Source of the DNA: Rubrivivax gelatinosus IL144
GTDB lineage: Bacteria > Pseudomonadota > Gammaproteobacteria > Burkholderiales > Burkholderiaceae_C
Length of the DNA stretch: 64,000 nt
Direction: 5' to 3'
Assembly: GCF_000284255.1 (NCBI RefSeq)
Contig: NC_017075.1
Coordinates: forward strand, 124,001-188,000
Shown here: positions 9,227 through 34,764 of the stretch, piece after piece
Layout of the letters: the number at the start of each line of letters is the position of its first letter
How positions within the stretch are numbered: the stretch's first letter is position 1
Program-made: the position numbers and the translations under genes
Notes under the pieces: model-generated
The model's database searches: none
Told to the model about the DNA's origin: nothing
What the model saw: only the letters and a program-made list of their open reading frames with translations

Positions 9227-9343
9227 GCAAGCGGCGCTTCGCGCAGCGCGAATCCGACTTTGCGGCAGATCAAAAACGCAATGTCAACGGCTGACAGTTC
9301 GGGCCCGAACGGCGCCGCCCCCAGCGATATCGTGTGCTCGTCC
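9227..9343 (+). repeat. Promoter segment duplicated at 34648-34764
   Basis: This 117-base stretch aligns without gaps to 34648-34764; by eye 103 of 117 bases agree. It includes all dyads and the -10-like box of the composite promoter. It is a regulatory duplication, not a coding one. Confidence 0.8.
9238..9333 (+). promoter_or_regulatory. Composite catabolic promoter, copy 1 (before the MFS/CoA-transferase/SDR operon)
   Basis: Three dyads in a row: TTCGC-N5-GCGAA (9238-9252), TTGCG-N4-ATCAA (9260-9273, Crp/Fnr-like geometry), and TGTCAACGGCTGACA (9282-9296). Their centres are 21.5 and 22.5 bp apart, about two helical turns. A TATCGT -10-like box follows 31 bp after the last dyad (9328-9333), with no good -35, as expected for an activator-dependent promoter. 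The same order and spacing recur at three other operons. The 9082-9418 gap holds this promoter, the terminator at 9134 and an untranslated leader. Confidence 0.8.
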
Positions 9344-9418
9344 GACATACATCAAAAGACGAATAGACGAACCTTCCCGGCCCCAGCGGACAGGGGCCCT
9401 GTCATGAGGAATAACGAG

Positions 9419-10753
9419 ATGGGCGCACGCTTGCAGGCGGGGAATTCCCCGGCGACACCACCAATCGGCAAGAAACCCTCCGCGAATAACTTCGGCGGCT
9501 GGGGCTGGAGCATGATCGGCTTCAGCCTGCTGATGTACTACAACTTCGCGGCGTGGACCGCGGACGGTCTCAACGTGATCGTCGAGAGTTTCGTCGATCT
9601 GCACGGCTGGGATTATGCGACGCTGCTCGCATTCTCGACGCCGGCGGGCTGGCTGGGGGTGCTCGGCTCGTTCCTGATCGCCGAGATGATCAATCGCAAG
9701 GGTGCCCGCCTGGTCGCCCTCGGCGGTTTGGTGGCGCTCGGCGCGACGATGATCTGGTTCGGTCGCGTGACGACCCCGATGGAATATGCCATCGGCCTCA
9801 CCCTGATCAATTTCCTGGCCACCGGCACCTGTTTCAACGTGCCCGGCACGCTGCTCACCACCTGGTTCCCGCGGAAAAAGGGCCTGGCCCTCGGCTGGGC
9901 CACGATGGGGATGTCGCTGTGCACCGCGACGCTGGTCCCGCTGATGGTCATGCTGTTCAGCCGCTTCGGTGTCCAGGATACCTATGCGGTCGTCGGCGGC
10001 GTCCTCATCGTCTTCGGCATCGTCTCCTTCTTCTGGGTCCGCAACACCCCCGAGGAACTCGGCTGCTCGCCTGACAACGAGAAGCTCTCCAAGGAGGCGA
10101 TGGCCGAGAACCTGCGCGAGTTCAACGAGCACAAGAGCCCGTTCACGCTGCCGGTGCTGCTGCGCGACCGCGACATGTGGCTGATCTCCGTGGGTTATGG
10201 CGTGCTCTGGCTGGTGGATATCGGCGTGGTCAGCCAGCTGATTCCCCGTCTGATTTCGGTGGGCTACGACAAGCAGACCGCGATCATGATGTTCACGACC
10301 GCAGCGCTGTTCTGCGCAGTGTTCAGCTACTTCTGGGGCTGGGCCGACGTGAAGTTCGGCACGCGGCGCACGAGCATCGCTTACGCATTCTTCTTCGCGG
10401 CCACCCACGCCTGCCTCCTGGTGCGGGGCAGCGACACCTTCACGTATTTCACCCTGCTGATGGTCGGCGCCAGTATCGCCGGCATCAAGGAACTCGCCAC
10501 GTCGCAGGTCGGGTCGGTTTACGGGCGATATGACTTCGCCGCCGCGAACCGCGTCATCTCGACGATCGCCTGCCTGTTCCGGGTGATGTGCTTCGCCGTC
10601 ATCGCCGCCAGCCTGAAGTGGACCGGTGATTTCGACGCGGCCTACATGTTCTTCATCTTCCTGGACTTCGTCGGGGCCGCGCTGATTTACTTCATCACGA
10701 CCGAGTGCAAAGGCCGGGTGGATGCCAGCGACGCAGCCTACGCCGGCCACTGA
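9419..10753 (+). CDS. MFS transporter, first gene of the phloroglucinol-type operon
   Basis: 444 residues, about 12 membrane segments. I chose the ATG at 9419 because AGGAA lies eight bases upstream; an ATG at 9404 (reading MRNNEM) is an alternative. It is paralogous to the MFS protein at 33272: both share DRDMWLISVG, then QLIPRL, and late in the chain VGSVYGRYDF. This is the anion:cation/organic-acid symporter style of MFS carriers, suggesting uptake of an aromatic or organic acid. Codon use is somewhat less GC-biased than the neighbours (for example TTATGCG, GGGATATT nearby), which may hint at separate ancestry. It follows composite promoter copy 1. Confidence 0.85.
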   Translation: MGARLQAGNSPATPPIGKKPSANNFGGWGWSMIGFSLLMYYNFAAWTADGLNVIVESFVDLHGWDYATLLAFSTPAGWLGVLGSFLIAEMINRKGARLVALGGLVALGATMIWFGRVTTPMEYAIGLTLINFLATGTCFNVPGTLLTTWFPRKKGLALGWATMGMSLCTATLVPLMVMLFSRFGVQDTYAVVGGVLIVFGIVSFFWVRNTPEELGCSPDNEKLSKEAMAENLREFNEHKSPFTLPVLLRDRDMWLISVGYGVLWLVDIGVVSQLIPRLISVGYDKQTAIMMFTTAALFCAVFSYFWGWADVKFGTRRTSIAYAFFFAATHACLLVRGSDTFTYFTLLMVGASIAGIKELATSQVGSVYGRYDFAAANRVISTIACLFRVMCFAVIAASLKWTGDFDAAYMFFIFLDFVGAALIYFITTECKGRVDASDAAYAGH

Positions 10754-10837
10754 ATAACTCGGACAAACAACCGGGATATTCACCGACCGCTGCTCGATAA
10801 CCCCCGCCGGACAACGGTCGGAACACTCAACCAAACC

Positions 10838-11500
10838 ATGATTTCCAAACCTTTGATCACGGCTGCCGACGCGGCGGCCCTCGTCGAGGACGGGATGACG
10901 GTGATGATCGGCGGCTTCATGGCGGTCGGCACGCCGGAAGCCATCGTCGACGCGCTGGTCGCCAGCGGCCGGCGGGACCTGACGATCATCGCCAACGACA
11001 CCGGCTTCGTCGACCGCGGCGTCGGCAAGCTGGTGACCAACCGTCAGGTGCGCAAGGTCATCGCCTCGCACATCGGCACCAACCCCGAGACCGGCCGCCA
11101 GATGTCCGACGGCGTGCTCGAGGTCGAGCTGGTGCCGCAGGGCACGCTGATCGAACGCATCCGCGCCCACGGCGCCGGGCTGGGCGGGGTGCTGACCCCC
11201 ACCGGCCTGGGCACGGTGGTCGAGAGCGGCAAGGCGCGCGTGCGCGTCGGCGACGCCGACTTCCTGGTCGAGACGCCGCTGCGCGCGGACATCGCGTTCA
11301 TCCGCAGCTCGCGCTCGGACGCGGCCGGCAACTCGGCCTTCTACAAGACGACGAAGAACTTCAACCCGACGATGGCCACGGCGGCCGACCTCGTCGTCTG
11401 CGAGGCGCAGGAGATCGTCGAGATCGGCTACGGCCGCGGCGACGACTTCCACCTGCCCGGCATCTTCGTCGACTACCTGGTCCAAGGGGAGCGGCGCTGA
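10838..11500 (+). CDS. 3-oxoacid CoA-transferase subunit A
   Basis: 220 residues of the family I CoA-transferase alpha subunit. The glycine-rich MIGGFMAVGTPE and the SHIGTNPETGRQM segment are characteristic, as is LGGVLTPTGLGTVVE. With subunit B it would move CoA from acetyl- or succinyl-CoA to a beta-keto acid such as acetoacetate. Its stop overlaps the start of subunit B by one base (TGATG arrangement). In the proposed pathway it activates the acetoacetate released by the BKACE enzyme. A second A/B pair exists at 23695-25017. Confidence 0.93.
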   Translation: MISKPLITAADAAALVEDGMTVMIGGFMAVGTPEAIVDALVASGRRDLTIIANDTGFVDRGVGKLVTNRQVRKVIASHIGTNPETGRQMSDGVLEVELVPQGTLIERIRAHGAGLGGVLTPTGLGTVVESGKARVRVGDADFLVETPLRADIAFIRSSRSDAAGNSAFYKTTKNFNPTMATAADLVVCEAQEIVEIGYGRGDDFHLPGIFVDYLVQGERR

Positions 11501-12180
11501 TGGACAAGAACCAGATCCGGCGGCGCATCGCACGCCGCGTGGCCCGCGAACTGAAGGCGGGTGACCTCGTGAACCTGGGCATCGGGCTGCCGACTTCGGT
11601 CGTCAACTTCGTGCCCGACGAACTGGGCATCGTCTTCCAGTCCGAGAACGGGATGCTGGGCGTCGGCCCGGCGCCGACGCAGCAGGAAGAGATCGACCCG
11701 GACATCACCAACGCCGGCGGCCAGCCGGTCGGTGAACTGCCCGGCGCCATCTACTTCGACAGCGCGATGTCCTTCACGATCATCCGCGGCGGTCACGTCG
11801 ACGTGACCGTGCTCGGGGCGCTGGAGGTCGACGCCGAGGCCAACCTGGCCAACTGGATCGTGCCGGGCAAGCTGGTGCCCGGCATGGGCGGTGCGATGGA
11901 CCTCGTGACGGGGGCGCGCCGCGTCATCGTCGCGATGGAGCACTGCGACAAGAACGGCAGGCCGCGCGTGCTCGAACGCTGCTCCCTGCCCCTCACGGCC
12001 GTCGGTGTCGTCGACCTGGTCGTGACCGAGAAAGCGGTCATCGAGATGACCGAAGACGGACCCCTGCTGACCGAGATCGCCGCCGACACGACGGTGGAGG
12101 AGGTCATGCGCACGACGGGAGCGCGGCTGGCAGTCGCGCTCGATCTCAAGACTTTCGGTGAAGAGGAGTTAGAGCAATGA
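11500..12180 (+). CDS. 3-oxoacid CoA-transferase subunit B
   Basis: 226 residues. The family I beta-subunit active-site region is present: QSENGMLGVGP carries the catalytic Glu (SENG motif), followed by ITNAGGQPV and the GGHVDVTVLGALEVD segment. It is translationally coupled to subunit A (one-base overlap) and to the cupin gene downstream (ATGA overlap at 12177). It forms a heteromer with the product at 10838. Confidence 0.93.
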   Translation: MDKNQIRRRIARRVARELKAGDLVNLGIGLPTSVVNFVPDELGIVFQSENGMLGVGPAPTQQEEIDPDITNAGGQPVGELPGAIYFDSAMSFTIIRGGHVDVTVLGALEVDAEANLANWIVPGKLVPGMGGAMDLVTGARRVIVAMEHCDKNGRPRVLERCSLPLTAVGVVDLVVTEKAVIEMTEDGPLLTEIAADTTVEEVMRTTGARLAVALDLKTFGEEELEQ

Positions 12181-12518
12181 AGGTCACGAACGTGGCGGCG
12201 GCCAAAGCCTACAACCCCCCGCTGCACAACGGCATGGTGGCGCTGAAGCTCAGCGACAAGGCGCTCACGGGTGCCGAGAAGTTCTGGTGCGGGATGTCCC
12301 ACTTCCTCCCGGGCGGCGGTGCCGACTGGGCCTACGAGGACTCGCCGACCGAGAAGCTGTACTACGTCGTCGAAGGCGAGCTGGTCATCAAGACCAAGGA
12401 CGGCGAGACGACGGTGCGCGCCGGCGACGCCGTGTTCCTCGCGCCCTTCGAGGGCCGCTCGGTGATCAACAAGACCAACTACCCCGCCAGCATGCTGGTG
12501 GTGGCGACGAACAGCTGA
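12177..12518 (+). CDS. Small single-domain cupin protein
   Basis: 113 residues forming one cupin barrel. Motif 1 is degenerate (FLPGGGADWAYEDSPTEKLYYVVEGEL) and motif 2 reads VRAGDAVFLAPFEGRSV. The usual metal-binding His pair of motif 1 is not obvious. It could be a tautomerase or isomerase-like helper, a binding protein, or an enzyme acting on a cyclic diketone. It lies between the CoA-transferase and the SDR and overlaps the former by four bases, so it is co-translated with the catabolic operon. Precise role unknown. Confidence 0.8.
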   Translation: MKVTNVAAAKAYNPPLHNGMVALKLSDKALTGAEKFWCGMSHFLPGGGADWAYEDSPTEKLYYVVEGELVIKTKDGETTVRAGDAVFLAPFEGRSVINKTNYPASMLVVATNS

Positions 12519-12539
12519 AGAGAGAAGGAAGCAGACATC

Positions 12540-13328
12540 ATGGACAAGCAATGGGACCAACGCGTGAAGTCGCTGTTCGACCTCACGGGACAAGTCGCGG
12601 TCATCACCGGCGGTGCCGGTTCGCTGGGTGAGGGCGTGGCCCGCGGCCTGGCGGTGCACGGGGCGACGGTCGTCGTCACCGGACGCACGATGGAGACGCT
12701 GCAGAAGGCCGTCGCCCAGGTCGAGGAAGCCGGCGGCAAGGCCGTCGCGATCACCAGCGACGTGACCGACGAAGCCTCGGTGCAGGCGCTGGCCGACAAG
12801 GTGATGACGCAGTTCGGGCGCATCGACATCCTGGTCAACATCGCCGGCATCGCGCGCCGCCACCCGGCCGAGAAGTTCCCGCTCGACGACTTCCGCAAGG
12901 TCATCGAAGCCAACGTCACCGGCACCTTCATTCCCTGCAAGGTGTTCGGCGAGATCTTCGTGCGCCAGAAGCACGGCAAGATCGTCAACACCTCCTCGGT
13001 GCGTGCCTTCGCGGGCCACCCGGGCGGCTACGCGGCCTACGGCACCAGCAAGGGCGCGGTCAACCTGCTGACCAAGCAGCTGGCCACCGAATGGGCCAAG
13101 CACGGCGTCAACGTCAACGCCGTCGCGCCGACGATCTTCTGGACCCCGCTGACGCAGGAAGTCCTCGAGGACGAGAAGCTCAAGAAGATCTTCCTCGACC
13201 GCATCCCGATGGGCCGTGCGGCGGAAGTCATCGACATGGTCGGCACCACGGTCTACCTGTGCGCGCCGGCCGCCGACTTCATCACCGGCCAGGTCGTCTA
13301 CGTGGACGGCGGCTGCACCGCGGGCTGA
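12540..13328 (+). CDS. SDR-family oxidoreductase, candidate phloroglucinol reductase
   Basis: 262 residues. The nucleotide-binding motif TGGAGSLG is near the N-terminus. An Arg after the second beta-strand (VVVTGRT) favours NADPH. The NIAG motif and catalytic Y167-x3-K171 (YGTSK) with an upstream TSS serine complete the classical SDR site. Known phloroglucinol reductases of anaerobes are NADPH-dependent SDRs related to polyhydroxynaphthalene reductase. The assignment rests on the neighbours, a cyclase-family hydrolase and a BKACE, which match the next steps. It could alternatively be a 3-hydroxyacid dehydrogenase. A good SD (AGAAGGAAG) precedes the ATG. Confidence 0.9.
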   Translation: MDKQWDQRVKSLFDLTGQVAVITGGAGSLGEGVARGLAVHGATVVVTGRTMETLQKAVAQVEEAGGKAVAITSDVTDEASVQALADKVMTQFGRIDILVNIAGIARRHPAEKFPLDDFRKVIEANVTGTFIPCKVFGEIFVRQKHGKIVNTSSVRAFAGHPGGYAAYGTSKGAVNLLTKQLATEWAKHGVNVNAVAPTIFWTPLTQEVLEDEKLKKIFLDRIPMGRAAEVIDMVGTTVYLCAPAADFITGQVVYVDGGCTAG

Positions 13329-13417
13329 GGACCGTCCCGCGCGCCGCCGTTCCTCCACGGCCACAGGGCCCGCGGCGGCGCACCCCAAACCTTCTTCAGA
13401 GACAGACAGGAAACATC
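13329..13417 (+). other. Intra-operon spacer with a GC-rich inverted repeat
   Basis: GCGCCGCCG near 13343 can pair with CGGCGGCGC near 13373, across a loop of about 22-26 bases; an SD-like AGGAAA precedes the next gene. It may tune mRNA stability between the SDR and cyclase genes. Confidence 0.4.
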
Positions 13418-14218
13418 ATGGGCAAGAAAGTACTCGTGGACCTGAGCCACCCGTTCGGCGCGACCTCGCCGCTGTGGCCTTACTTCCAGGCGCCGCAGAT
13501 CAGCAAGCTGCACTACATGGCCAAGTCGGGCGTGCTGACGCAGCAGATCACCGCGACGATGCACTGCTCGACGCACGCCGACTCGCCGGCGCACGTCGTC
13601 GAAGGCACCGAGTTCACGCACGAGATCCCGCTGGACAAGTACTACGGCGACGCGGTGTGCGTGCACATCGAGAAGCCCGAATGGGGCGTCATCACCGCCG
13701 AGGACCTCGAGGCCGCGACGCCCGAGATCCGCAAGGGTGACATCGTCATCGTGCACACCGGCTGGCACAAGTACTACGGCGACAACACCAAGTACTACCA
13801 CTACGCCCCGGGCCTGGGCCGCAGCGCCGGCGAATGGTTCGTCAAGAAGGGCGTGAAGGCCGTCGGCGTCGACCAGCAGGCGCTGGACCACCCGCTGCAC
13901 ACCGCCATCGGCCCGCACGGCACCGGCCCGCTGGTGCCGCGCCTGATGGACGAGTACCGCGAGCGCACCGGCCGCGAGGTCAAGGACGACTTCCCGGAAT
14001 GGGAACCGTGCCACAACCTGATCCTCGGCAACGGGATCATGGGCTACGAGAACGTCGGTGGCGACATCGAGAAGGTCGTCGGCAAGCGCTTCAAGATCAT
14101 GGGCTTCCCGATCCGCTGGTACATGGGCGACGGCTCGTGGGTGCGCCTGGTCGCCGAGATCGACGAGGACGACCTGAACCCGGTGCCGGATCGCGTCTAC
14201 AAGTACGGCACGTACTGA
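13418..14218 (+). CDS. Cyclase-family metal hydrolase, candidate dihydrophloroglucinol cyclohydrolase
   Basis: 266 residues. The metal-binding signature of the cyclase / kynurenine-formamidase family (PF04199) is intact: H49-x3-H53-x-D55-x3-H59 (HCSTHADSPAH). VIVHTGWHKYYG and the ending region VRLVAEID also fit. Family members hydrolyse cyclic or amide substrates with Mn or Zn. Dihydrophloroglucinol cyclohydrolase of the anaerobic pathway is, to my recollection, a Mn-dependent member of this family, opening the ring to 3-hydroxy-5-oxohexanoate. Its place directly after the SDR and before the BKACE supports that role. The product could instead act on another cyclic diketone or lactone. Confidence 0.88.
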   Translation: MGKKVLVDLSHPFGATSPLWPYFQAPQISKLHYMAKSGVLTQQITATMHCSTHADSPAHVVEGTEFTHEIPLDKYYGDAVCVHIEKPEWGVITAEDLEAATPEIRKGDIVIVHTGWHKYYGDNTKYYHYAPGLGRSAGEWFVKKGVKAVGVDQQALDHPLHTAIGPHGTGPLVPRLMDEYRERTGREVKDDFPEWEPCHNLILGNGIMGYENVGGDIEKVVGKRFKIMGFPIRWYMGDGSWVRLVAEIDEDDLNPVPDRVYKYGTY

Positions 14219-14232
14219 GGCCCACCCCCGAA

Positions 14233-14328
14233 GCGCCTTCGGCGCGGCCGGGCCAGTGGCCCGGCCCTTCGGCTGGCGCGGACCGTCCACCGGACGGTCC
14301 ACGTCCCGCCGAAGCCCCCTCAGGGGGC
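14233..14328. repeat. Four consecutive perfect hairpins with 3-nt loops
   Basis: Stem-loops in a row: GCGCC-TTC-GGCGC (14233-14245), GCCGGGCC-AGT-GGCCCGGC (14247-14265), GGACCGTCC-ACC-GGACGGTCC (14280-14300), GCCCCC-TCA-GGGGGC (14314-14328). No T run follows, so this is not a simple terminator. It occupies the 231-base spacer between the cyclase and BKACE genes. It resembles a REP/BIME-like RNA structure that could differentially stabilise the operon mRNA. Confidence 0.75.
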
Positions 14329-14449
14329 ACTGCGGCTGCTTGATGCGCCGTTGGTCGCGGGGCGCCTTTCCCCTCTCACGCAAGCACAACCGCCGGCGCC
14401 GCTCCTCCGGGTTGGATGCGGCAGACGGCCGATCGAAAGAAGGACTGAC

Positions 14450-15298
14450 ATGAACCTCAGCAACAAGGTGATCTGCACCGTGGCGTGCACCGGTGCGTGG
14501 CCGAGCAAGGCCGACACGCCGTACATCCCGCTGACGCCGCAGGAAGAAGCCGACGAGGTCGTGCGCTGCTGGGAGGCGGGGGCCTCGATCGCGCACATCC
14601 ACGTGCGCAACGACGAAGGCAAGGCCTCGATGGACTTCGACAAGTTCGCCGAGACCGTGCGCCTGATCCGCGCCCGTGCGGACATCGTCATCAACCTGAC
14701 GACCTCCGGCGGCCTGGGCCTGACCGACGAGATCCGGATGAAGCCGTTCCAGGAACTGCGCCCCGAGATCTGCTCGTTCGACGCCGGCACGATGAACTGG
14801 GCGCACTCGACGATCTTCGAGAACAGCCCGCGCTTCCTGGAGAAGCTGGCCATCGAGACCGCGGCCTGCGGCGTCAAGCCGGAGTACGAGATCTTCGACG
14901 CCGGCATGATCTACAACATCGGCTACTACCGCCGCAAGGGCCTGCTGCAGCACCGCCCGCACTTCCAGTTCGTGCTCGGCGCGCCCGGTGGCATGACGGC
15001 CGAAGTGCGCAACCTGATGTTCCTGCTGGAGACCTGCCGCGAGGTCGTCGGCGACGACTTCACCTGGGGCGGTCTGGGCATCGGCAAGGGCCACCTGCCG
15101 ATCCAGCTCGCCTGCCTGGCGCTGGGCGGCCACGTGCGCGTCGGCATGGAAGACAACATCTTCTACCGCAAGGGCCAGCTCGCGAAGAGCAACGTCGAGT
15201 TCGTCGAGCGCGTCAAGCGCCTGGCGGCCGAAGTCGACAAGGAAGTCGCGACGCCTGACGAGGCGCGCGAGATCCTTCAGCTCAAGCGTCAGGCCTGA
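14450..15298 (+). CDS. BKACE (beta-keto acid cleavage enzyme, DUF849), candidate triacetate acetoacetate-lyase
   Basis: 282 residues. The BKACE fold markers are present: an N-terminal ICTVACTGAW strand, the metal-binding H49-x-H51 (AHIHVRND), and the conserved E234 in RVGMEDNIFY. BKACE enzymes condense a beta-keto acid with acetyl-CoA to give acetoacetate and a CoA ester. In the anaerobic phloroglucinol route a BKACE cleaves 3,5-dioxohexanoate (triacetate) to acetoacetyl-CoA and acetoacetate. Here it follows candidate reductase and ring-opening genes, which favours that substrate; 3-keto-5-aminohexanoate or another beta-keto acid remains possible. Its 3' end overlaps the convergent Crp/Fnr gene by 17 bases. 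Confidence 0.92.
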   Translation: MNLSNKVICTVACTGAWPSKADTPYIPLTPQEEADEVVRCWEAGASIAHIHVRNDEGKASMDFDKFAETVRLIRARADIVINLTTSGGLGLTDEIRMKPFQELRPEICSFDAGTMNWAHSTIFENSPRFLEKLAIETAACGVKPEYEIFDAGMIYNIGYYRRKGLLQHRPHFQFVLGAPGGMTAEVRNLMFLLETCREVVGDDFTWGGLGIGKGHLPIQLACLALGGHVRVGMEDNIFYRKGQLAKSNVEFVERVKRLAAEVDKEVATPDEAREILQLKRQA

Positions 15299-16070
15299 GT
15301 CGGGGACGATCGTGACGCGTCTCGTGCGCCGGCGCCGAAACTCCGAGGCCGTCTTCGGCCTCCGGGGCCGCGGCCTCGTCCTCCGCCATCGCCAGTTCGC
15401 CGATGCCGCGATCGGCGACGAGGCGCAGGCGCTCGAGGTCCAGCACGATCGTCTTGCCGTACTTGGAGCCCATGATCCCGAGCCGCGCGAAGTGCTTGAT
15501 CGTCTTGGCGACGAACGGGCGCGACAGGCGCAGGCAGTCGGAGATGAACTCGATCGAGAAGGGCAGCTGCTGTTGCGGGATCGCGCTCCAGCTGCAGCAA
15601 TGCACGAGGAACTGGGCGATCCCCTGTTCCTTGGACGAAGCCTTGTGCGTGCACAGCGCCAGGCGCATGTCGTCGAGCATCCGGCCCAGCCCATTGATCA
15701 CGAAGGACTGGAACTCCGGGAAGTGTTCGAGCAGGTGCATGAACACATGGCTCGGGATCAGCAGCAGCTCGACGCGGGTGACCGCGTAGAGCTCGAAGTC
15801 CAGCGGCCGGTGCTGCAGCGTGTTGTTCACCAGCAGCAGCCGGTCGGGGTGGAAATGCGTCAGCAGGATGCGCTCGTTCTCGGAGTTCGTGATCCACGAG
15901 AACAGCATCCCGTTGAGCGTGTAGACCACCGCCCCGGGATGCGCGCCTTGCGGGAACACCACCGAGTTGCTCGGGTAGGTGCGCAGCTTGGAGCCGTCGG
16001 CGATCGCGTGCCGCAGAGGCTGGGAGAACCCCCTCATCAGGGGCAGTTCGAGGAGCTTGGAGGTGTCCAC
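15282..16070 (-). CDS. Crp/Fnr-family transcriptional regulator with unusual recognition helix
   Basis: 262 residues if translation starts at the GTG at 16070; no clear SD is visible and a Met at residue 13 is an alternative. A cyclic-nucleotide-binding-like beta-barrel fills the first half (VVFPQGAHPGAVVYTLNG), then a long dimer helix, then a winged HTH around FISDCLRLSRPFVAKTIKHF. There is no N-terminal cysteine cluster, so it is not an oxygen-sensing Fnr. At the Fnr positions for Glu-x-x-Ser-Arg the chain reads P-x-x-A-K, so a non-canonical half-site is expected. It sits among the catabolic genes, divergent from pntAa. It is the best candidate to bind the TTGCG-N4-CGCAA dyads; the ligand is unknown. 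An acidic, Ala/Glu-rich tail extends beyond the HTH. Confidence 0.85.
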   Translation of the reverse strand: MDTSKLLELPLMRGFSQPLRHAIADGSKLRTYPSNSVVFPQGAHPGAVVYTLNGMLFSWITNSENERILLTHFHPDRLLLVNNTLQHRPLDFELYAVTRVELLLIPSHVFMHLLEHFPEFQSFVINGLGRMLDDMRLALCTHKASSKEQGIAQFLVHCCSWSAIPQQQLPFSIEFISDCLRLSRPFVAKTIKHFARLGIMGSKYGKTIVLDLERLRLVADRGIGELAMAEDEAAAPEAEDGLGVSAPAHETRHDRPRLRPDA

Positions 16071-19562: not shown

Positions 19563-20468
19563 TCAGGCGCGGCCGGCCGAACTCTTGCGCTGGCGGATCA
19601 GCTCCAGCATCGCCCCGGCGGCGATCGACAGCGGCCGGTCCTTGCGCCAGAGCACGTGGATCGGCCGCGTGATGCCCGGCGGCGCCAGCGGCACGGCCAC
19701 CAGCTCGGGGTGGCGGAACTGGGTCAGCGCCAGCTCCGGCAGCAGGCTCACGCCCAGGCCGTGGCGGATCAGCCCGGCCACCGTCGACAGGTAGTTGACC
19801 TGGAAGGTCGACGAGGTGACGCCGGTCGCACCGACCGCGTTGACGACGTGCTGGTGCACGCTGGTCTGGCGCGACAGGCGGATGAAGTCGCAGCCGTCCA
19901 GGTCTTCGAGCGAGACGCTTTCGAGGCGTGCGACACGGTGGTCGCGCCGGCACACGAGGTAGAAGCGGTCGCTGTGGAAGTGTTCGCTGCAGTATTCGTC
20001 CAGCGGCGTGTTCGGCGCCGCGATGGCGATGTCGGCTTCGCCGCTGTTGAGCAGCTGCATGCAGGTGTCCGACAGCACGTCGTAGACCTCGACCGCGATG
20101 CCCGAGTACAGGCTGCGGAACTCGCCGATCACCGGCGGCAGCCAGTCGCCCGAGATCGACGGCAGCGCCGCGATGCCGACACGGCCCTTCTTCTTCGCCA
20201 CCAGGTCGTTGAGGTTGCTGAAGGTGCGTTCGATCTCGTCGACCAGGTGGCGCGCCGCGTCGGCGAACAGCGCGCCCTCGGGCGTCAGCACGACGTTGCG
20301 CGTGTCGCGGTCGAACAGCCGCGTGCCGACGTCCTCCTCCAGGCGCTGGATCATGCCGCTCAGCGTGGACTGCGAGACGTGGCAGTGCTCGGCCGCGCGC
20401 GTGAAGTTCTTCTGCTCGACCAGTGTCAGGAAGGCCTTCAGCAGTCGGAAGGAGACATTAATCGCCAT
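19563..20468 (-). CDS. LysR-family transcriptional regulator, divergent from the CitMHS gene
   Basis: 301 residues. The N-terminal winged HTH (FRLLKAFLTLVEQKNFTRAAEHCHVSQSTLSGMIQRLEEDVGTRLFDR) is followed by a periplasmic-binding-like effector domain (GRVGIAALPSISGDWLP onward). It is transcribed away from the CitMHS-AtuA-CoA-transferase genes across a 219-base spacer, the usual layout for a LysR activator of the adjacent operon. The effector is probably the organic acid imported by the neighbouring carrier. No signs of truncation. Confidence 0.93.
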   Translation of the reverse strand: MAINVSFRLLKAFLTLVEQKNFTRAAEHCHVSQSTLSGMIQRLEEDVGTRLFDRDTRNVVLTPEGALFADAARHLVDEIERTFSNLNDLVAKKKGRVGIAALPSISGDWLPPVIGEFRSLYSGIAVEVYDVLSDTCMQLLNSGEADIAIAAPNTPLDEYCSEHFHSDRFYLVCRRDHRVARLESVSLEDLDGCDFIRLSRQTSVHQHVVNAVGATGVTSSTFQVNYLSTVAGLIRHGLGVSLLPELALTQFRHPELVAVPLAPPGITRPIHVLWRKDRPLSIAAGAMLELIRQRKSSAGRA

Positions 20469-25183: not shown

Positions 25184-25257
25184 TTGATCCAGCGCAAAAC
25201 GAGGATGGCAACGCTTGCCATTTCACGGCCCTGCCGGTCGGGCGTCGGCGATACCGT
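25184..25257 (+). promoter_or_regulatory. Composite catabolic promoter, copy 4 (before the MaoC-Pta/ackA/thiolase operon)
   Basis: TTGAT-N4-CGCAA (25184-25197), eight bases, then TGGCAACGCTTGCCA (25206-25220), then 31 bases and TACCGT (25252-25257). Order and spacing equal those at 9260, 32108 and 34681. The outer TTCGC-N5-GCGAA dyad is not conserved here. The 25018-25385 gap otherwise holds an untranslated leader of about 120 bases and no supported gene. Confidence 0.75.
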
Positions 25258-25385: not shown

Positions 25386-26837
25386 ATGATGGCTGAGGAA
25401 ACGATCGTCGACGCCCGCCTGCGTCGTGCCGAGGCGACCGGCCCCGCGTCGGTGGCGACGGTGAGCAACGTCCCGTTCGACGAGCTGCTGATCGGCCAGA
25501 GCGCCAGCGTCACGCGCCAGGTGACGATGGACGAGATCGAACTCTTCGCCGCCGTCTCGCACAACCGCAACCCGCTGATGCTCGACGCCGAGTTCGCCGT
25601 CGGCGGGCCGTACCGGCGCGTCATCGCGCACGGCATGTGGAGCGGCTCGCTTCTGTCGGGCATCCTGGGCTCGCAGCTGCCGGGTTTCGGCACCGTCTAC
25701 CGCGGCCAGAACCTGCAGTTCCTGCACCACGTCGCGCTCGGCGACACGATCACCGCCAGCGTCACCGTCGTCGAGAAGAACGCCGAGACCGGCGTCGTCG
25801 TGCTGCGCTGCCTGTGCCGCAACCAGGACGGCGTGACCATCGTCAGCGGCACCGCCGAGGTGCTGGCGCCACGGCACAAGACGACGCTGCCGGTGGCCGA
25901 GCTGCCCCAGGTGCAGCTGATCCACCACCACCAGCACGACGCGCTGCTGCGCCGCTGCCAGGCGCTGGAGCCGGTGGCCACCGCGATCGTCTACCCCTGC
26001 AGCGAAGCCGCGCTGCGCGCCGCCGTCGAGGCCCAGCACGCCGGGCTGATACGCCCGGTGCTGGTCGGCCCGGCGGCGAAGATCCGCGCCATCGCCGCGG
26101 GCTGCGTGCTCGACATCGCCGGCCTGCGCATCGTCGACGCCGAACGTCCGGCCGACGCCGCCGAAGCCGCCGCCCGCCTGGCGCGCGACGGCGAGGTCGG
26201 CGCGCTGATGAAGGGCTCGCTGCACACCGACGAGCTGATGAGCGCCGTCGTGCGCCGCGAGAACGGCTTGCGCACCGCGGCGCGCATCAGCCACGTCTTC
26301 GCGGTCAACGTGCCGACCTATCCGCGGCTGCTGCTGATCACCGACGCGGCGGTCAACATCTCGCCCTCGCTCGACGACAAGGCGCACATCGTCCAGAACG
26401 CGATCCACCTCGCGCAGGTGCTGGGCGTGGCGACGCCCAAGGTCGCGATCCTGTCGGCGGTCGAGACGCTGAACCCGAAGATCCCGTCGACGCTGGAAGC
26501 GGCGGCGCTGTGCAAGATGGCCGAGCGCGGTCAGATCACCGGCGGCGTGCTCGACGGCCCGCTGGGCTTCGACAACGCGATCTCGGCCGAGGCCGCACGC
26601 ACCAAGGGCATCGTCTCGCCGGTGGCCGGTTCGCCCGACATCCTGCTCGTGCCCGACCTCGTGTCCGGCAACACGCTGGCCAAGCAACTGAGTTTCCTCG
26701 CCCACGCCGAGGCGGCCGGCATCGTGCTCGGCGCCAAGGTGCCGGTGATCCTGACCAGCCGCGCCGACAGCCTGCGCTCGCGCCTGGCCTCCTGCGCGAT
26801 CGCCTCGCTGATGGCCGCCGCGCACCGCGCCGCCTGA
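25386..26837 (+). CDS. Bifunctional MaoC-like enoyl-CoA hydratase / phosphate acetyltransferase
   Basis: 483 residues. The N-terminal third is a hot-dog MaoC domain (about 20-150; FAAVSHNRNPLMLDAEFA, IAHGMWSGSLLSGILGSQLPG with the hydratase Asn/His region). The C-terminal two thirds form a phosphotransacetylase/phosphobutyryltransferase domain (about 170-480; VLVGPAAKIRAIA, KGSLHTDELMSAVV, GVLDGPLGFDNAIS). The fusion converts acyl-CoA to acyl phosphate, coupled to the kinase immediately downstream. In the pathway it would turn acetyl-CoA into acetyl phosphate. Two ATG codons in tandem (25386, 25389) could serve as start; no strong SD is visible. Confidence 0.92.
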   Translation: MMAEETIVDARLRRAEATGPASVATVSNVPFDELLIGQSASVTRQVTMDEIELFAAVSHNRNPLMLDAEFAVGGPYRRVIAHGMWSGSLLSGILGSQLPGFGTVYRGQNLQFLHHVALGDTITASVTVVEKNAETGVVVLRCLCRNQDGVTIVSGTAEVLAPRHKTTLPVAELPQVQLIHHHQHDALLRRCQALEPVATAIVYPCSEAALRAAVEAQHAGLIRPVLVGPAAKIRAIAAGCVLDIAGLRIVDAERPADAAEAAARLARDGEVGALMKGSLHTDELMSAVVRRENGLRTAARISHVFAVNVPTYPRLLLITDAAVNISPSLDDKAHIVQNAIHLAQVLGVATPKVAILSAVETLNPKIPSTLEAAALCKMAERGQITGGVLDGPLGFDNAISAEAARTKGIVSPVAGSPDILLVPDLVSGNTLAKQLSFLAHAEAAGIVLGAKVPVILTSRADSLRSRLASCAIASLMAAAHRAA

Positions 26838-26849
26838 AAGGAGCCCGCC

Positions 26850-28166
26850 GTGGCCAAACATTCCGCCTGCCTCGTGCTCAACGCCGGTTCGTCGAGCCTG
26901 AAGTTCTCGGTCTTCCGCGACGACCCGACGCGCGCCCGGCTGCAGCCGGTGTTGAGCGGCCAGGTCTCGGGCATCGGCGGCACCGCGCGGCTGGAAGCCA
27001 AGGACGCCGAACGCCGCGTCATCGCCGAGCGCTACTGGAGCGCCGATCAGTCGCTGTCGCGCCAGGACCTGCTGGACCACGTGCTGGCCTGGATCTCGAC
27101 GACGCTGGACGGCGACCACATCGTCGCCGTCGGCCACCGCGTCGTGCACGGCGGCCCGGACATCGCCGAGCCGCGCGTCGTCAGCCCGGCGCTGCTGGAA
27201 GAGCTGCAGCAGCTCGTGCCGCTGGCACCGCTGCACCAGCCGCACAACATCGCGCCGATGCGGCTGATCGCCGAACGGTTCCCCGACCTGCCGCAGGTCG
27301 CGTGTTTCGACACCGCCTTCCACCGCGGCCAGCCCTGGGTGACGCGCACCTACGCGCTGCCCAAGGAGCTGACCGCCGACGGCGTCTGCAGCTACGGCTT
27401 CCACGGCCTGTCCTACGAGTACGTGTCGCGCACGCTGCTGGCCGCGCGGCCCGAGCTGGCGCGCTCGCGCATCGTCATCTGCCACCTGGGCAACGGCTCC
27501 AGCGTCTGCGCGGTGCAGAACGGCCGCAGCGTCGACACCTCGATGGGCTTCACCGCGCTGGACGGCGTGCCGATGGGCACGCGCAGCGGCGCGCTCGATC
27601 CCTCGGTGATCTTCTACCTCGTGCGCGAGTACGGCATGACGCTGGAAGACGTCGAGACGCTGCTCTACACGCGCAGCGGTCTGCTCGGCGTCTCCGGCCT
27701 GTCCAACGACATGAAGGTGCTGCTGGAGTCGACCGACGCCGACGCGCACCAGGCCGTGGAGCTCTTCTGCTTCCGTGTCGCCAAGGAGGTCGCGGCGCAG
27801 AGCGCCTCGATCGGCGGCCTGGACGCGCTGGTGTTCACCGGCGGCATCGGCGAGAACGCGCCGCGGGTGCGCGAGCTGATCGCCGAGCGCCTGGCCTGGC
27901 TGGGCGTGGAGCTGGACGCGCACGCCAACGCCGCGCGTCACGACGAGATCGGTGCCGAGCGGGCGCGCGTGCGCTCCTTCGTCGTGCCGACCAATGAAGA
28001 ACTGATGATCGCCCAGCACACGCTGGCGCTGCTGCGCGAAGCGCGTTCGCCGCTGCCGGCGGCGCGCCCGGCGCCGCCGCCGCGGCGCCCGGTCGCGGCG
28101 CTGCTGCGCCAGGCCGCACGGCGTCCCCGCACCTTCCTCGCCCTCAAGGGCACCGCCCCGCGCTGA
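26850..28166 (+). CDS. ackA: Acetate (or propionate/butyrate) kinase with C-terminal extension
   Basis: 438 residues from a GTG codon preceded by AAAGGAG. ASKHA-kinase motifs: LVLNAGSSSLKFSVF at the N-terminus, VGHRVVHGG, FDTAFH, YGFHGLSYEYVS, and VFTGGIGENAPRVRE. The paired Pta-like gene starts 12 bases upstream, giving an ATP-forming module. The usual family length is about 400; here some 40 extra residues at the end are Pro/Arg/Ala-rich (from about 397, LPAARPAPPPRRP). This tail is atypical and may be unstructured. Acetate is the preferred substrate in the proposed pathway. Confidence 0.93.
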   Translation: MAKHSACLVLNAGSSSLKFSVFRDDPTRARLQPVLSGQVSGIGGTARLEAKDAERRVIAERYWSADQSLSRQDLLDHVLAWISTTLDGDHIVAVGHRVVHGGPDIAEPRVVSPALLEELQQLVPLAPLHQPHNIAPMRLIAERFPDLPQVACFDTAFHRGQPWVTRTYALPKELTADGVCSYGFHGLSYEYVSRTLLAARPELARSRIVICHLGNGSSVCAVQNGRSVDTSMGFTALDGVPMGTRSGALDPSVIFYLVREYGMTLEDVETLLYTRSGLLGVSGLSNDMKVLLESTDADAHQAVELFCFRVAKEVAAQSASIGGLDALVFTGGIGENAPRVRELIAERLAWLGVELDAHANAARHDEIGAERARVRSFVVPTNEELMIAQHTLALLREARSPLPAARPAPPPRRPVAALLRQAARRPRTFLALKGTAPR

Positions 28167-28203
28167 GCGCGGGACTTCACCCCGACACCCCAGGAGTCAC
28201 ACC

Positions 28204-29388
28204 ATGGTTCAAGAAGTCTTCGTCATGAGCGCCGTGCGCTCGGCCATCGGCACCTTCGGCGGCTCGCTCGCCGATTTCCATGCCTGCGAGCTGGGCGGCC
28301 TCGTGATGCGCGAAGCCGTCGCCCGCGCCCATCTCGACCCCGAACTGCTCGAGTACGTCACCGTCGGCACGACGATGCCGACCGACTCGCGCTACCCCTA
28401 CGTGTCGCGCGTCGCCTCGATCCAGGCCGGGCTGCCGATGACGTCGACGGCGATGCAGCTCAACCGCCTCTGCGCCTCGGGCCTGCAGGCCGTCGTGACG
28501 ACGGCGCAGAACATCCGCCTGGGCGACGTCGCCGCGGGCATCGGCGGCGGCGTCGAGGTGATGTCGCGTGCCGCGTACATGCTGCCGGCGCTGCGTTCCG
28601 GCGCGCGCATGGGCGACACGGTGGCCTTCGACGGCATGCAGTCGATCCTGACCGACCCGTTCGGCGTCGGCCACATGGGCGTCACCGCCGAGAACCTGGC
28701 CACCAAGTACGGCATCACGCGCGAGGAGCAGGACGCCTGCGCGGTCGAGTCGCACCGCCGCGCCGCGGTGGCGATCGCCGAAGGCCGCTTTGCCGGCCAG
28801 ATCGTTCCGATCGTCAAGAAGACGCGCAAGGGCGAGGTCGTGTTCGACACCGACGAGCACTGCAAGCCCGAGACGACGATGGAGTCGCTGGGCAAGCTGC
28901 GTCCGGCCTTCAAGAAGGACGGCGGCACGGTGACCGCCGGCAACGCCTCGGGCATCAACGACGGCGCCGCCTTCCTGGTGCTGGCCAACGGCGAGGTCGC
29001 CGCGCGTTCGGACAAGAAGCCGATGGCGCGCCTGGTGTCCTATGCGGTGTCCGGCGTCTGCAACGACGTGATGGGCGAGGGCCCGGTGCCGGCGACGCGT
29101 GCGGCGCTGAAGAAGGCCGGCCTGTCGCTGGACGCGATGGACGTCATCGAGTCCAACGAGGCTTTCGCGGCGCAGGCGCTGACGGTGGCCAAGCTGCTCG
29201 GCCTGGACCCGGCCAAGACCAACCCGAACGGCGGCGCGATCGCGCTCGGCCACCCGGTGGGCTGCAGCGGCGCCTTCATCGCGACCAAGGCGCTGCACGA
29301 ACTGCAGCGTGTCCAGGGCCGCTACGCGCTGGTCACGATGTGCATCGGCGGCGGCCAGGGCATCGCCGTGATCTTCGAACGCGTCTGA
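28204..29388 (+). CDS. Acetyl-CoA C-acetyltransferase (thiolase)
   Basis: 394 residues with the thiolase triad: C90 (NRLCASGLQA), H350 (GHPVGCSGA) and C380 (MCIGGGQG). Length and motifs match biosynthetic/degradative acetoacetyl-CoA thiolases. In this context it splits acetoacetyl-CoA, from the BKACE and CoA-transferase steps, into two acetyl-CoA. CAGGAG precedes the ATG. It is followed closely by the small gene at 29409. Confidence 0.95.
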   Translation: MVQEVFVMSAVRSAIGTFGGSLADFHACELGGLVMREAVARAHLDPELLEYVTVGTTMPTDSRYPYVSRVASIQAGLPMTSTAMQLNRLCASGLQAVVTTAQNIRLGDVAAGIGGGVEVMSRAAYMLPALRSGARMGDTVAFDGMQSILTDPFGVGHMGVTAENLATKYGITREEQDACAVESHRRAAVAIAEGRFAGQIVPIVKKTRKGEVVFDTDEHCKPETTMESLGKLRPAFKKDGGTVTAGNASGINDGAAFLVLANGEVAARSDKKPMARLVSYAVSGVCNDVMGEGPVPATRAALKKAGLSLDAMDVIESNEAFAAQALTVAKLLGLDPAKTNPNGGAIALGHPVGCSGAFIATKALHELQRVQGRYALVTMCIGGGQGIAVIFERV

Positions 29389-30969: not shown

Positions 30970-30980
30970 AAGGACCCGCC

Positions 30981-32075: not shown

Positions 32076-32085
32076 GCGTCAGACC

Positions 32086-32182
32086 TTCGCGGCAGGCGAA
32101 TCCAGGCTTGCGCTGGCGCAACCTGGAAATGTCAACGGCTGACATTTGAAGTACGGAGCGAGGGTTCGCCCGGGGATATCGT
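32086..32182 (+). promoter_or_regulatory. Composite catabolic promoter, copy 2 (before the PhlG-type hydrolase operon)
   Basis: TTCGC-N5-GCGAA (32086-32100), seven bases, a perfect TTGCG-N4-CGCAA (32108-32121), eight bases, TGTCAACGGCTGACA (32130-32144), then 32 bases and TATCGT (32177-32182). The 32076-32430 gap contains this promoter and a leader of about 240 bases with no supported ORF. Confidence 0.8.
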
Positions 32183-32430
32183 GAATCGGTCCCAAGTCAA
32201 TCTGACGATGTCCTGACGGGAACCGTTCGCGGGGCCGAGGCACGAGGATTCCAAGCCGGGGGCAATAGATCGACGTGGGCTGCGGGGACTATCTCGCGGC
32301 GCACCGCTGAATCGTCTGCGGAAGATATTCGGCGGCGACCGCGACGCACGGTCGATATACCCGGCAACCTCGCTGCGTTTTCGCGCCGATACGCGTCGCC
32401 CCGCCAGGCAATCACCTGAAAGGAATTGCC

Positions 32431-33249
32431 ATGCGTCGCGAACTCTCGGCCTTTGACAAGGCCCAGCCCTACGCCCCCTGGTTCGACCGGCCGATGACGC
32501 CGGCGCCGCAATCGATCTACGAGGAACTCGACCGCGGGCCGCTGGACCCGGCGCTGGCGCTGCCGCTGGCCGAACGCGACAAGCTGCTCCAGCCCGGCTA
32601 CCTGCCGGCCGAGCGCGGCTGGTGCCTGATGCCCGACGGCAGCGCCTTCGTCGCCGGCCTGACGCGCATGCCCGGCGTGACCGCCGAGATGCTCGAGTGG
32701 TGGTTCTACTGGCACGGCCTGCACGGCCTGCGCTACGCGATCTGGGACGCCGACGACCACTACGACGCGCGCGTCAGCCCCGAGACCATCCGCCGCCGCC
32801 TGGACCCGACGCTGTCGATCCGCGAGCGCGGCTGGAACACCACCGACATCGTGCTCGAGGACGTGGGCACCGGCCCGACCGAGCTGCACATCTCCTTCGT
32901 CAGCCCCGAGGCCTTCGGCTACGACATGGCGGCCTTCCGCACCGGCGCCTGCGCCGCGATCAGCGCCAACATCCGCCACGGCAGCGGGCCCTCGCTGGTC
33001 TGCTTCTCGCACGTGGCGCGCGAGACCGAGGGCGGCATCGAACTGCGCAGCCGCTTCTGGCTGGGCTGGAACGTCGTCGACGGCCAGCCGGTGCGCGTGG
33101 GGCAGGGCGTGCCGCAGGAGGTGTTCGTGGGCCTGGCCCAGGGCCTGGTGCGCCACTGCCCGAAGGAGTACCACAACCTCGCGGCGATCCTGCCGGCCGT
33201 CTGGGCCGAGAACAAGGACCGCGCCGACCGGCTCGAGGACTATCTCTGA
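32431..33249 (+). CDS. PhlG-type C-C hydrolase (diacetylphloroglucinol / phloretin hydrolase family)
   Basis: 272 residues. The family hallmark EWWFYWHGLHGLRYAIWDADDHYD (about 89-111) carries candidate Zn ligands H95 and H98/H110. The C-terminal H242-x3-E246 (HCPKE) matches the His-x3-Glu Zn ligands known in PhlG. PhlG hydrolyses the C-C bond of 2,4-diacetylphloroglucinol, and phloretin hydrolase yields phloroglucinol plus phloretate. Here a preceding composite promoter and the downstream pathway genes make delivery of phloroglucinol from an acylated precursor the likely role. AAAGGAA lies seven bases before the ATG. The natural acyl substrate cannot be read from sequence. Confidence 0.9.
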   Translation: MRRELSAFDKAQPYAPWFDRPMTPAPQSIYEELDRGPLDPALALPLAERDKLLQPGYLPAERGWCLMPDGSAFVAGLTRMPGVTAEMLEWWFYWHGLHGLRYAIWDADDHYDARVSPETIRRRLDPTLSIRERGWNTTDIVLEDVGTGPTELHISFVSPEAFGYDMAAFRTGACAAISANIRHGSGPSLVCFSHVARETEGGIELRSRFWLGWNVVDGQPVRVGQGVPQEVFVGLAQGLVRHCPKEYHNLAAILPAVWAENKDRADRLEDYL

Positions 33250-33271
33250 CGCGCCGCCGCGCGAGGTCGCC

Positions 33272-34564
33272 ATGGACAAGACCTTGAGCCTGGCCGGCGC
33301 CGCGCCGGCCGACCCCGTGCCGCGCACCGGCTTCGGTGCGGCCGGCTGGCGCATGATCCTCTTCTCGGTGCTGATGTACTTCGCCTATGCGGGCTGGTGC
33401 GTCGACGGCATCAACATCTTCGCCCCGGCGCTGGCGGCGAAGAACGGCTGGAGCACCGGCCAGCTGCTGACGCTGGTGACGCCCGGCGCGCTGTTCGGCG
33501 TCGTCGGCTCGGCGGTGTTCGGCCAGGTGCTGATCAAGAAGGGCCCGCGCTGGGTGATGAGCTTCTGCGCCGCCTGCACCGCGGTGGCGGTGTTCTGGTT
33601 CGGGCGCATCACCACGCTCTGGGAGTTCACGGCGGTGTTCATCGTCATGAACTTCTTCGCCGCGGGTTTCGGCTTCATCGCCCCGGGCGCGCTGATGAAC
33701 TACTGGTTCCCGCGCCGCAAAGGCATGGCGCTGGCGATCGCGACCTCGGGCTACCCGCTGGCCACCGCGCTGTTCGTGCCGCTGATCGCGGTGATGTTCA
33801 ACACCGTCGGCATCGGCGCGTCCACCGCCATCTGGGCCGGGATCTTCCTGTTGCTGGCCGTGGCCGCCTGGCTGGTGATCCGCGACACGCCCGAGGAGAT
33901 CGGCTGCTTCCCCGACAACGACCCCCGGGTCGACCGGGCGAGGCTGGACGAGATGGCCGGCTACGTCAGCCCGCTCACCGTGCGCCGGCTGCTGAAGGAC
34001 CGCGACATGTGGCTCATCAGCGTCGGCTGGGGCTGTCTGTGGATGGTCACGGTGGGCATCGTCGTGCAGCTGATCCCGCGGCTGATGGAACTCGGCTACG
34101 ACGAGCCGCAGGCGCTGGGCTTTCTGTCGGGCGCCGCGCTCTGCGCGCTGCCCGGCGGGCTGCTGTGGGGCTGGCTGGACCAGAAGTTCGGCACCAAGAC
34201 GGCGAGCGCGCTCTACGGCGCGATGTACATCGTCACGCTGGTCCTGCTCGTCACGCAGTCCCACAGCCCGGTGATGACCTTCCTGACCATCGTGCTCGTC
34301 GGCGTCGGCCTGGGCGGCATCAAGAACCTGATCACCTCGATGGTCGGCTCGGTGTACGGCCGCTACGACTTCACCGCCGCCTATCGCATCGTGATCCCGC
34401 TGGCGATCATCGTGCGCACGCTGTGCTTCCCGATCATGGGCTTGTGCATGCAGCAGTTCCAGACGCTGAGCGCGGCCTACCTCGTGTTCATCGGCGTCGA
34501 CGTGCTCGCCGTCGTGCTGGTGCTGCTGACGACCAGCCGCTGCAAGGGCAAGACGCTCGGCTGA
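33272..34564 (+). CDS. MFS transporter paired with the PhlG-type hydrolase
   Basis: 430 residues, about 12 helices, paralogous to 9419-10753 (DRDMWLISVGWGCLWM, VVQLIPRL, VGSVYGRYDFTAAYRI). It lies 22 bases after the hydrolase with a GAGG SD, so the two are one operon. It probably imports the hydrolase's aromatic substrate. A strong terminator follows at 34591. Confidence 0.88.
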   Translation: MDKTLSLAGAAPADPVPRTGFGAAGWRMILFSVLMYFAYAGWCVDGINIFAPALAAKNGWSTGQLLTLVTPGALFGVVGSAVFGQVLIKKGPRWVMSFCAACTAVAVFWFGRITTLWEFTAVFIVMNFFAAGFGFIAPGALMNYWFPRRKGMALAIATSGYPLATALFVPLIAVMFNTVGIGASTAIWAGIFLLLAVAAWLVIRDTPEEIGCFPDNDPRVDRARLDEMAGYVSPLTVRRLLKDRDMWLISVGWGCLWMVTVGIVVQLIPRLMELGYDEPQALGFLSGAALCALPGGLLWGWLDQKFGTKTASALYGAMYIVTLVLLVTQSHSPVMTFLTIVLVGVGLGGIKNLITSMVGSVYGRYDFTAAYRIVIPLAIIVRTLCFPIMGLCMQQFQTLSAAYLVFIGVDVLAVVLVLLTTSRCKGKTLG

Positions 34565-34590
34565 GCGCCGCCCGACCCCGGCCAGACAAG

Positions 34591-34611
34591 GCCGCCTGCG
34601 GGCGGCTTTTT
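34591..34611 (+). terminator. Rho-independent terminator after the MFS gene
   Basis: GCCGCC-TGCG-GGCGGC stem followed by TTTTT. Confidence 0.9.
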
Positions 34612-34647
34612 CATCGCCCGGCGGCTGTTCACAGCCGCCGCCGCAGC

Positions 34648-34764
34648 GCAAGCGGCGCTTCGCCGGACGCGAATTCGGCTTTGCGCCAGATCAAAAGCGC
34701 AATGTCAACCGCTGACAATTCGCGCCCGAACGGCGCCGCCTCCGGCGATATCGTGTGCCCGTCC
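34648..34764 (+). repeat. Promoter segment duplicated at 9227-9343
   Basis: Ungapped partner of 9227-9343, about 88% identical by eye. The two copies head different operons. Confidence 0.8.
34659..34754 (+). promoter_or_regulatory. Composite catabolic promoter, copy 3 (before the dehydrogenase/porin/decarboxylase operon)
   Basis: TTCGC-N5-GCGAA (34659-34673), seven bases, TTGCG-N4-ATCAA (34681-34694), eight bases, TGTCAACCGCTGACA (34703-34717), 31 bases, TATCGT (34749-34754). The 34565-35039 gap holds the terminator, this promoter, and a leader with one short ORF (34830). Confidence 0.8.

Follow-up and report, generated by a model that had tools for sequence, protein, structure and literature searches.

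Ahead of four operons in a 64,000-nucleotide stretch of the Rubrivivax gelatinosus IL144 genome (contig NC_017075.1, forward-strand positions 124,001 to 188,000; hereafter, the window) stands a composite module of two inverted repeats (dyads B and C) and a hexamer at nearly fixed distances, and a fifth copy lies elsewhere in the same genome. R. gelatinosus is a purple bacterium, phloroglucinol is a plant phenol, and the module seems, from its sequence context, to switch five sets of phloroglucinol uptake and breakdown genes on together. The core module consists of dyad B (TTG-N8-CAA), 8 bp, dyad C (TGKCA-N5-TGMCA), 31-32 bp, and TAYCGT. The module is real and specific and, in all likelihood, functional. 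We consider B-8-C-31-TAYCGT to be probably a promoter that depends on activators and is common to the operons of a polyphenol/phloroglucinol regulon, with a Crp/Fnr-family protein encoded in the cluster as the leading candidate for B, a second dimer on C, and a further dyad, A, as an optional addition. The five sites are as follows.

9238..9252, + strand: site 1, dyad A, TTCGC-N5-GCGAA (half-sites kept in three of three strains)
9260..9273, + strand: site 1, dyad B, TTGCG-N4-ATCAA (sequence and genome scan)
9282..9296, + strand: site 1, dyad C, TGTCA-N5-TGACA (sequence and genome scan)
9328..9333, + strand: site 1, hexamer TATCGT, presumed -10 element (alignment and window count; the -10 role is inferred)
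25184..25197, + strand: site 2, dyad B, TTGAT-N4-CGCAA (genome scan; no dyad A here)
25206..25220, + strand: site 2, dyad C, TGGCA-N5-TGCCA (genome scan)
25252..25257, + strand: site 2, hexamer TACCGT (sequence and alignment)
32086..32100, + strand: site 3, dyad A (sequence and strain comparison)
32108..32121, + strand: site 3, dyad B, TTGCG-N4-CGCAA (sequence and genome scan)
32130..32144, + strand: site 3, dyad C, TGTCA-N5-TGACA (sequence and genome scan)
32177..32182, + strand: site 3, hexamer TATCGT after a 32-bp spacer (alignment and window count)
34659..34673, + strand: site 4, dyad A (sequence and strain comparison)
34681..34694, + strand: site 4, dyad B, TTGCG-N4-ATCAA (sequence and genome scan)
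34703..34717, + strand: site 4, dyad C, TGTCA-N5-TGACA (sequence and genome scan)
34749..34754, + strand: site 4, hexamer TATCGT (alignment and window count)
G000:C1:1328572-1328608, - strand: site 5, B-C core, outside the window (whole-genome scan)

A preliminary description of this DNA had placed three full copies and one partial copy in the window, and all of its positions and gaps hold, as do the centre-to-centre distances of 21.5 and 22.5 bp for the A-B and B-C dyads. It had called the arrangement tripartite, which holds only in part: B, C, and the hexamer are constant, and dyad A (TTCGC-N5-GCGAA, 7 bp before B) is optional, occurring at three of the five sites (1, 3, and 4) and absent from sites 2 and 5. 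Dyad B had been given as TTGCG-N4-CGCAA or a close variant; the exact form occurs only at 32108, whereas the copies at 9260 and 34681 read TTGCG-N4-ATCAA. Variation between the half-sites of the copy at 25184 had been thought to be compensated, and this is so for C (TGGCA/TGCCA) but not for B, as TTGAT and CGCAA are not self-complementary, which leaves dyad C as the sole compensated variant in that copy. In the alignment, the B dyads of sites 2 and 4 are nearly reverse complements of each other, which is what a site for a symmetric dimer should show.

The whole genome (5,043,253 bases; 5.04 Mb) was scanned with reversed patterns as the control. TTG-N8-CAA-N8-TGKCA-N5-TGMCA was present at five places with no mismatches, at none with one, and at three with two, compared to a single place for the reversed pattern. 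The window copies account for four of the five perfect matches, and the genome total is five rather than four. Site 5 was located via B-C alone, as the hexamer was not included in the pattern, and TATCGT lies exactly 31 bp further on within otherwise unlike surrounding sequence. On the + strand of the window, TATCGT occurs three times, precisely at the three TATCGT sites (1, 3, and 4). TGTCA-N5-TGACA alone was found at seven places genome-wide vs. one for the control, and its further places at 385890 and 3367773 have no B or hexamer at the module distances. The site-1 region had no match in the plasmid records searched.

Among 81 genomes of the genus scanned with ≤1 mismatch, 15 contained a match, and the window genome, R. 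gelatinosus DSM 1709 (G024), and R. gelatinosus IM 151 (G063) held five each, with two of the five IM 151 sites having one mismatch. The remaining 12 genomes had stray matches, one in each of nine and two in each of three (G047, G011, and G023); those in G043 and G077 are perfect for B-C, but lack TATCGT at 31 bp. DSM 1709 and IM 151 carry the same five sites as the window genome, with half-sites and hexamer kept and spacers diverged. In an alignment of these 15 copies (five sites x three strains), the TTG and CAA of B are present in 15 of 15, as a 14-bp even dyad TTGNN-N4-NNCAA, the half-site columns of C average 14.4 and 14.2 of 15 copies, and those of the hexamer average 14.5, with no change within any site group and TACCGT throughout the site 2 group. 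The TT at +2/+3 after C is also invariant. Variation is greater in the spacer, in the gap of seven bases, and in the DNA downstream. In each of the three strains, dyad A is found at sites 1, 3, and 4; its half-sites never change, but its centre does. At sites 1 and 4, a CAA also lies 7 bp upstream of dyad A (9217-9252 and 34638-34673) as a mirror of the TTG of B, and in IM 151 (G063:C16:8362-8397) it completes a perfect second B-like dyad on the far side of A.

When B-8-C-31-TAYNNT was sought more broadly, across 84,980 species genomes, 16 places were returned, of which seven belong to R. gelatinosus (four in DSM 1709 and three in IM 151; the pattern misses site 3, with its 32-bp spacer, and site 2 of IM 151, with its changed half-site, and the set may omit the window's own genome). 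The other nine are scattered among Saccharofermentans, Cloacimonadota, Diapherotrites, Janthinobacterium, Algoriphagus, Saprospiraceae, Anaerolineae, Chitinophagales, and Clostridia. Since none of these has TAYCGT, we read them as chance, even though nine is somewhat above a rough chance estimate of ~4 that assumes uniform base composition. Thus, the full spacing with TAYCGT was found in R. gelatinosus only. Random occurrence across the genome, which had been named beforehand as grounds for discarding the pattern, was not seen in the scans of the whole genome, the genus genomes, or the species genomes.

The sites precede genes of recognizable families.

9404..15298, + strand: behind site 1, MFS transporter, CoA-transferase subunits A and B, cupin, SDR, cyclase PF04199, and BKACE PF05853 (family matches)
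25386..29388, + strand: behind site 2, MaoC-phosphotransacylase, acetate-kinase family, and thiolase (family matches)
32431..34564, + strand: behind site 3, PhlG-like DAPG/phloretin hydrolase and MFS transporter (the NCBIfam PhlG model matches below its cut-off)
35037..39884, + strand: behind site 4, 3-hydroxyacyl-CoA-dehydrogenase family, BBP2 porin, MFS transporter, and amidohydrolase (family matches)

All 16 genes behind sites 1-4 have counterparts in the corresponding stretches of DSM 1709 and IM 151. The small ORF that follows site 4 is not conserved in IM 151. Several NCBIfam equivalog models match cluster proteins only below their cut-offs. The available text of PMC10470551 describes the anaerobic phloroglucinol pathway of Clostridium scatologenes and, in its section 12, names this cluster in R. 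gelatinosus. Homologues of PGR, DPGC, TfD, and TAL occur together in the window at the family level (SDR, cyclase, 3HCDH, and BKACE families, respectively). Judged by family and by PMC10470551, the site-1 enzymes would comprise a phloroglucinol-reductase-like SDR, a dihydrophloroglucinol-cyclohydrolase-like PF04199 protein, and a triacetate-lyase-like BKACE protein. At this level, the families of the genes flanking the sites agree with the anaerobic phloroglucinol pathway as published. Behind site 5 lies a gene for a BBP2 porin that shares ~52% identity with the porin of the cluster (as measured against the copies of the other strains), and a second PhlG-like hydrolase gene adjoins it. From the gene families behind sites 1-4 together with the site-5 porin, we infer that the module marks one functional regulon that includes a distant member. 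The original proposal of a composite operator-promoter common to several operons is strongly supported by genome-wide specificity, strain conservation, and attachment to one pathway, and the composite promoter would represent a new variant that serves one regulon in one species group. Other phloroglucinol-type cyclases (E < 1e-40) occur in three of 399 genomes of the order (the window's own, G434, and G469). The second cyclase of the window genome (L172:9604-10689; G000:C1:4111639-4112412, minus strand) is 60% identical to that of the window, has a divergent IclR-family gene, and is possibly part of a second ring-cleavage pathway. In G469, another cyclase-bearing genome of the order, an IclR-family gene lies ~8 kb from the cyclase.

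Dyad C was also encountered outside of the module, as AATGTCAACGCTTGACATTT is located at 3671650, ~145 bp upstream of a methyl-accepting chemotaxis protein (MCP) gene.

L113:5653-5667 = G000:C1:3671652-3671666: lone C dyad upstream of the MCP gene, near-identical to site 5 over 25 bases

Neither a B dyad nor a hexamer is found here at the module distances. All 15 bp of the dyad are kept upstream of the corresponding MCP gene in three strains, while the surrounding DNA diverges. With ≤3 mismatches, AATGTCAACGSYTGACATTT occurs at 6, 6, and 7 distinct places in the three genomes and the control at none; each genome contributes its five module copies and the dyad at the chemoreceptor gene, and IM 151 has one extra C-like site (G063:C40:28389). 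The presence of C without B at a chemoreceptor gene indicates that C can stand alone, probably with its own protein, and the lone dyad may tie chemotaxis to the polyphenol regulon.

How might the module work? TAYCGT would serve as a sigma-70-type -10 element lacking a -35 element, with nothing resembling a -35 box 17 bp away from it; RNA polymerase would then need activators. The right half of C was considered as a -35 box and set aside because no conserved hexamer follows at 17 bp, and a sigma-54 promoter was likewise dismissed, as no GG-N10-GC element was found at the sites (by eye only). With the first T of TAYCGT placed at -12, the centres of C, B, and A would fall at about -51, -73.5, and -95 on a single face of the helix, where two or three dimeric proteins could bind next to one another and contact the alpha subunits of RNA polymerase. 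B would be a Crp/Fnr-type site bound by the cluster-encoded Crp/Fnr protein, which perhaps senses phloroglucinol or a derivative, C would be read by a second dimer that possibly acts alone upstream of the chemoreceptor gene, and A would be an optional addition at three of the operons. Another conserved hexamer (T[AC]AATC-like) is located 14 bp past TATCGT at 9348-9353, 32197-32202, and 34769-34774, preceded at sites 1, 3, and 4 by CGTCC or GGTCC.

Two regulator genes of the window were examined as candidates.

15282..16070, - strand: candidate binding protein, a regulator of the Crp/Fnr family of 262 aa with a presumed GTG start (family search)
19563..20468, - strand: LysR-family regulator, divergent from CitMHS-AtuA-CoA-transferase genes that lack the module

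The Crp/Fnr protein has a cNMP-binding-like domain and a Crp HTH (PF13545 at 29.5 bits, over its cut-off; PF00027 and PF13545 precomputed) and no NCBIfam match. Its orthologues in DSM 1709 and IM 151 are 95% and 88% identical, respectively, and it is close in only these two of 197 other genomes. In the search of 198 genomes, 40 had any match at E 0.001, with 37 being weak (best 1.8e-8, 19-30% identity), and a protein search at the same E value, able to detect relatives only where they have short exact words in common, yielded three hits, one being the window protein itself and the other two carrying the name R. gelatinosus. There are 17 HTH_Crp_2 matches in the genome, 14 of them over the family cut-off (including the window's own), and among the matches is an FNR-like paralogue with an E-x-x-S-R helix. 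The predicted structure of the Crp/Fnr regulator was unusable (mean pLDDT 39.6). Binding of this protein to the module is plausible in that B is even and has TTG...CAA ends like an FNR-type site; symmetry and half-site frame both argue for B as the target, and odd symmetry, as in A and C, is unusual for the Crp/Fnr family, whose sites are even-symmetric. The LysR-family regulator was rejected as the binder of A, B, or C, as none of these is present in its own divergent region (window scan; two other strains by eye). A LysR-type T-N11-A dyad is lacking in C and present in A (by eye). The LysR/CitMHS intergenic region (20468-20530) contains a conserved block, CGATCAATCCATCGAAAAC, in three strains that is unlike A, B, or C and is a possible separate LysR operator.

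Several observations weigh against assigning the Crp/Fnr protein to B and against the promoter as drawn. Although the Crp/Fnr gene accompanies the module, the cluster as a whole does likewise, and thus co-occurrence does not single the regulator out. There is no module or dyad upstream of the Crp/Fnr gene itself. Dyad B alone is not enriched, at least for the one spelling counted: TTGCG-N4-CGCAA occurs at 7/4/4 places in the three strain genomes vs. 8/5/4 for the reversed control. T[AC]AATC could be the true -10, which would put the core promoter 20 bp further down and the dyads at about -71, -93.5, and -115. The recognition helix, S-R-P-F-V-A-K, is without the CRP/FNR glutamate. In CRP, the base contacts of this helix are R180, E181, and R185 according to the accessible part of PMC12531629, and the window protein has R, P, and K at these positions (mapped via Clr). 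The portion of PMC10127613 available to us describes S. meliloti Clr as reading TGT triplets in a 16-bp even site, HGTYHC-N4-GRWACA, and its helix, S-R-P-K-V-N-R, aligns with S-R-P-F-V-A-K. The Clr-like helix would thus fit C (TGT...ACA) better than B, although C is one bp too short for the Clr frame. On balance, B is slightly favoured over C as the dyad of the Crp/Fnr protein.

Accordingly, we weighed other arrangements. The same module could have the Crp/Fnr protein on C and a paralogue such as FnrL on B, so that substrate and anaerobiosis signals are combined, which we regard as unlikely. The resemblance of S-R-P-F-V-A-K to the TGT-reading Clr helix agrees with this, as C begins with TGT and finishes with ACA, and the genome has the FNR-like E-x-x-S-R paralogue for B; however, C is TGT-N9-ACA vs. 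the Clr frame TGT-N10-ACA in a family with even-symmetric sites, and the left half-sites of B are mostly TTGCG rather than the FNR half-site TTGAT. We know of no odd 15-bp spacing such as that of C in the Crp/Fnr family. More doubtful still is an extended form, in which the Crp/Fnr protein, as a lineage-specific factor, reads the odd 15-bp C by virtue of its altered helix, B falls to another Crp/Fnr protein and A to a third factor, and the three unlike dimers form a rigid activating array; if true, the uptake and breakdown of polyphenols as well as chemotaxis would be governed by substrate and redox signals combined. As unlikely as the exchange of binders between B and C is that C (and A) are operators of a repressor from another family that is relieved by phloroglucinol, leaving B as the sole activator site. 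C does occur without B at the chemoreceptor gene, and some anaerobic aromatic pathways are repressor-controlled, such as by MbdR in the available text of PMC4424350, but C, at about -51, would sit upstream of the core promoter as presumed here instead of covering it, the missing -35 box suggests activation, and the B-C distance is fixed at five of five sites.

Two further explanations would deny the module a constrained promoter function. The similarity between sites 1 and 4 is extended, starting before A and continuing beyond TATCGT, which might suggest recently duplicated promoter DNA whose likeness stems from ancestry. This is very improbable as a general account, given that the spacers of sites 2, 3, and 5 are unlike those of sites 1/4 and one another, while dyads and distances are kept, and orthologous spacers diverge where dyads do not. 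Least probable is that the elements act in RNA or belong to a mobile repeat: the inverted repeats are able to form hairpins, but the dyads are upstream of the presumed start with 5-bp arms and 4-5-bp loops, and the copies lack long common flanks and precede pathway-family genes in five of five cases.

In the open literature (5.39 million papers), which mostly does not cover subscription journals, we found neither a description of the composite module nor the spellings of dyads A and C or TTGCG-N4-CGCAA. PMC10470551 (2023) describes the pathway enzymes; its main text, as available, uses 'regulator' once and 'promoter' or 'operator' nowhere. Anaerobic phloroglucinol breakdown is a key step of polyphenol degradation, and the module defines its regulon from sequence alone, extending the pathway to a porin encoded far from the cluster and perhaps to a chemoreceptor. 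It also comes with a named candidate regulator and offers a simple handle on the proteins controlling the pathway, while its rigid geometry would be a clean case of unlike activators sharing one promoter.

FNR boxes read TTGAT-N4-ATCAA and NnrR boxes TTGCG-N4-CGCAA. Dyad B is likewise a 14-bp even dyad with TTG...CAA ends and TTGCG or TTGAT half-sites, but it is always 8 bp from C, far upstream (about -73), and its half-site positions 4-5 vary. CprK is a Crp/Fnr regulator of haloaromatic metabolism, and HbaR, AadR, and CprK act via single FNR-like boxes, whereas the module joins two or three unlike dyads. The link of a Crp/Fnr protein to anaerobic aromatic metabolism is nonetheless shared with these regulators, of which HbaR and AadR are named in PMC4424350. 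With S. meliloti Clr, the window regulator has in common the S-R-P-x-V helix, and C has the outer TGT/ACA, although C is 15 bp with odd symmetry and Clr sites are 16 bp and even (PMC10127613, in part). R. gelatinosus itself has tandem PpsR sites, (TGT-N12-ACA)-N8/9-(TGT-N12-ACA), with a pucB footprint that overlaps -35/-10 (PMC4452267, available portion); these resemble the module in being two dyads ~8 bp apart whose spacing matters, but B and C are unlike in sequence. As C is TGT-N9-ACA and not TGT-N12-ACA, it was rejected as a PpsR/CrtJ site. Tandem (class III) CRP-dependent promoters have in-phase upstream dyads on a weak core promoter. The module appears to share this arrangement, except that its dyads differ in sequence and are conserved as a rigid unit across the regulon.

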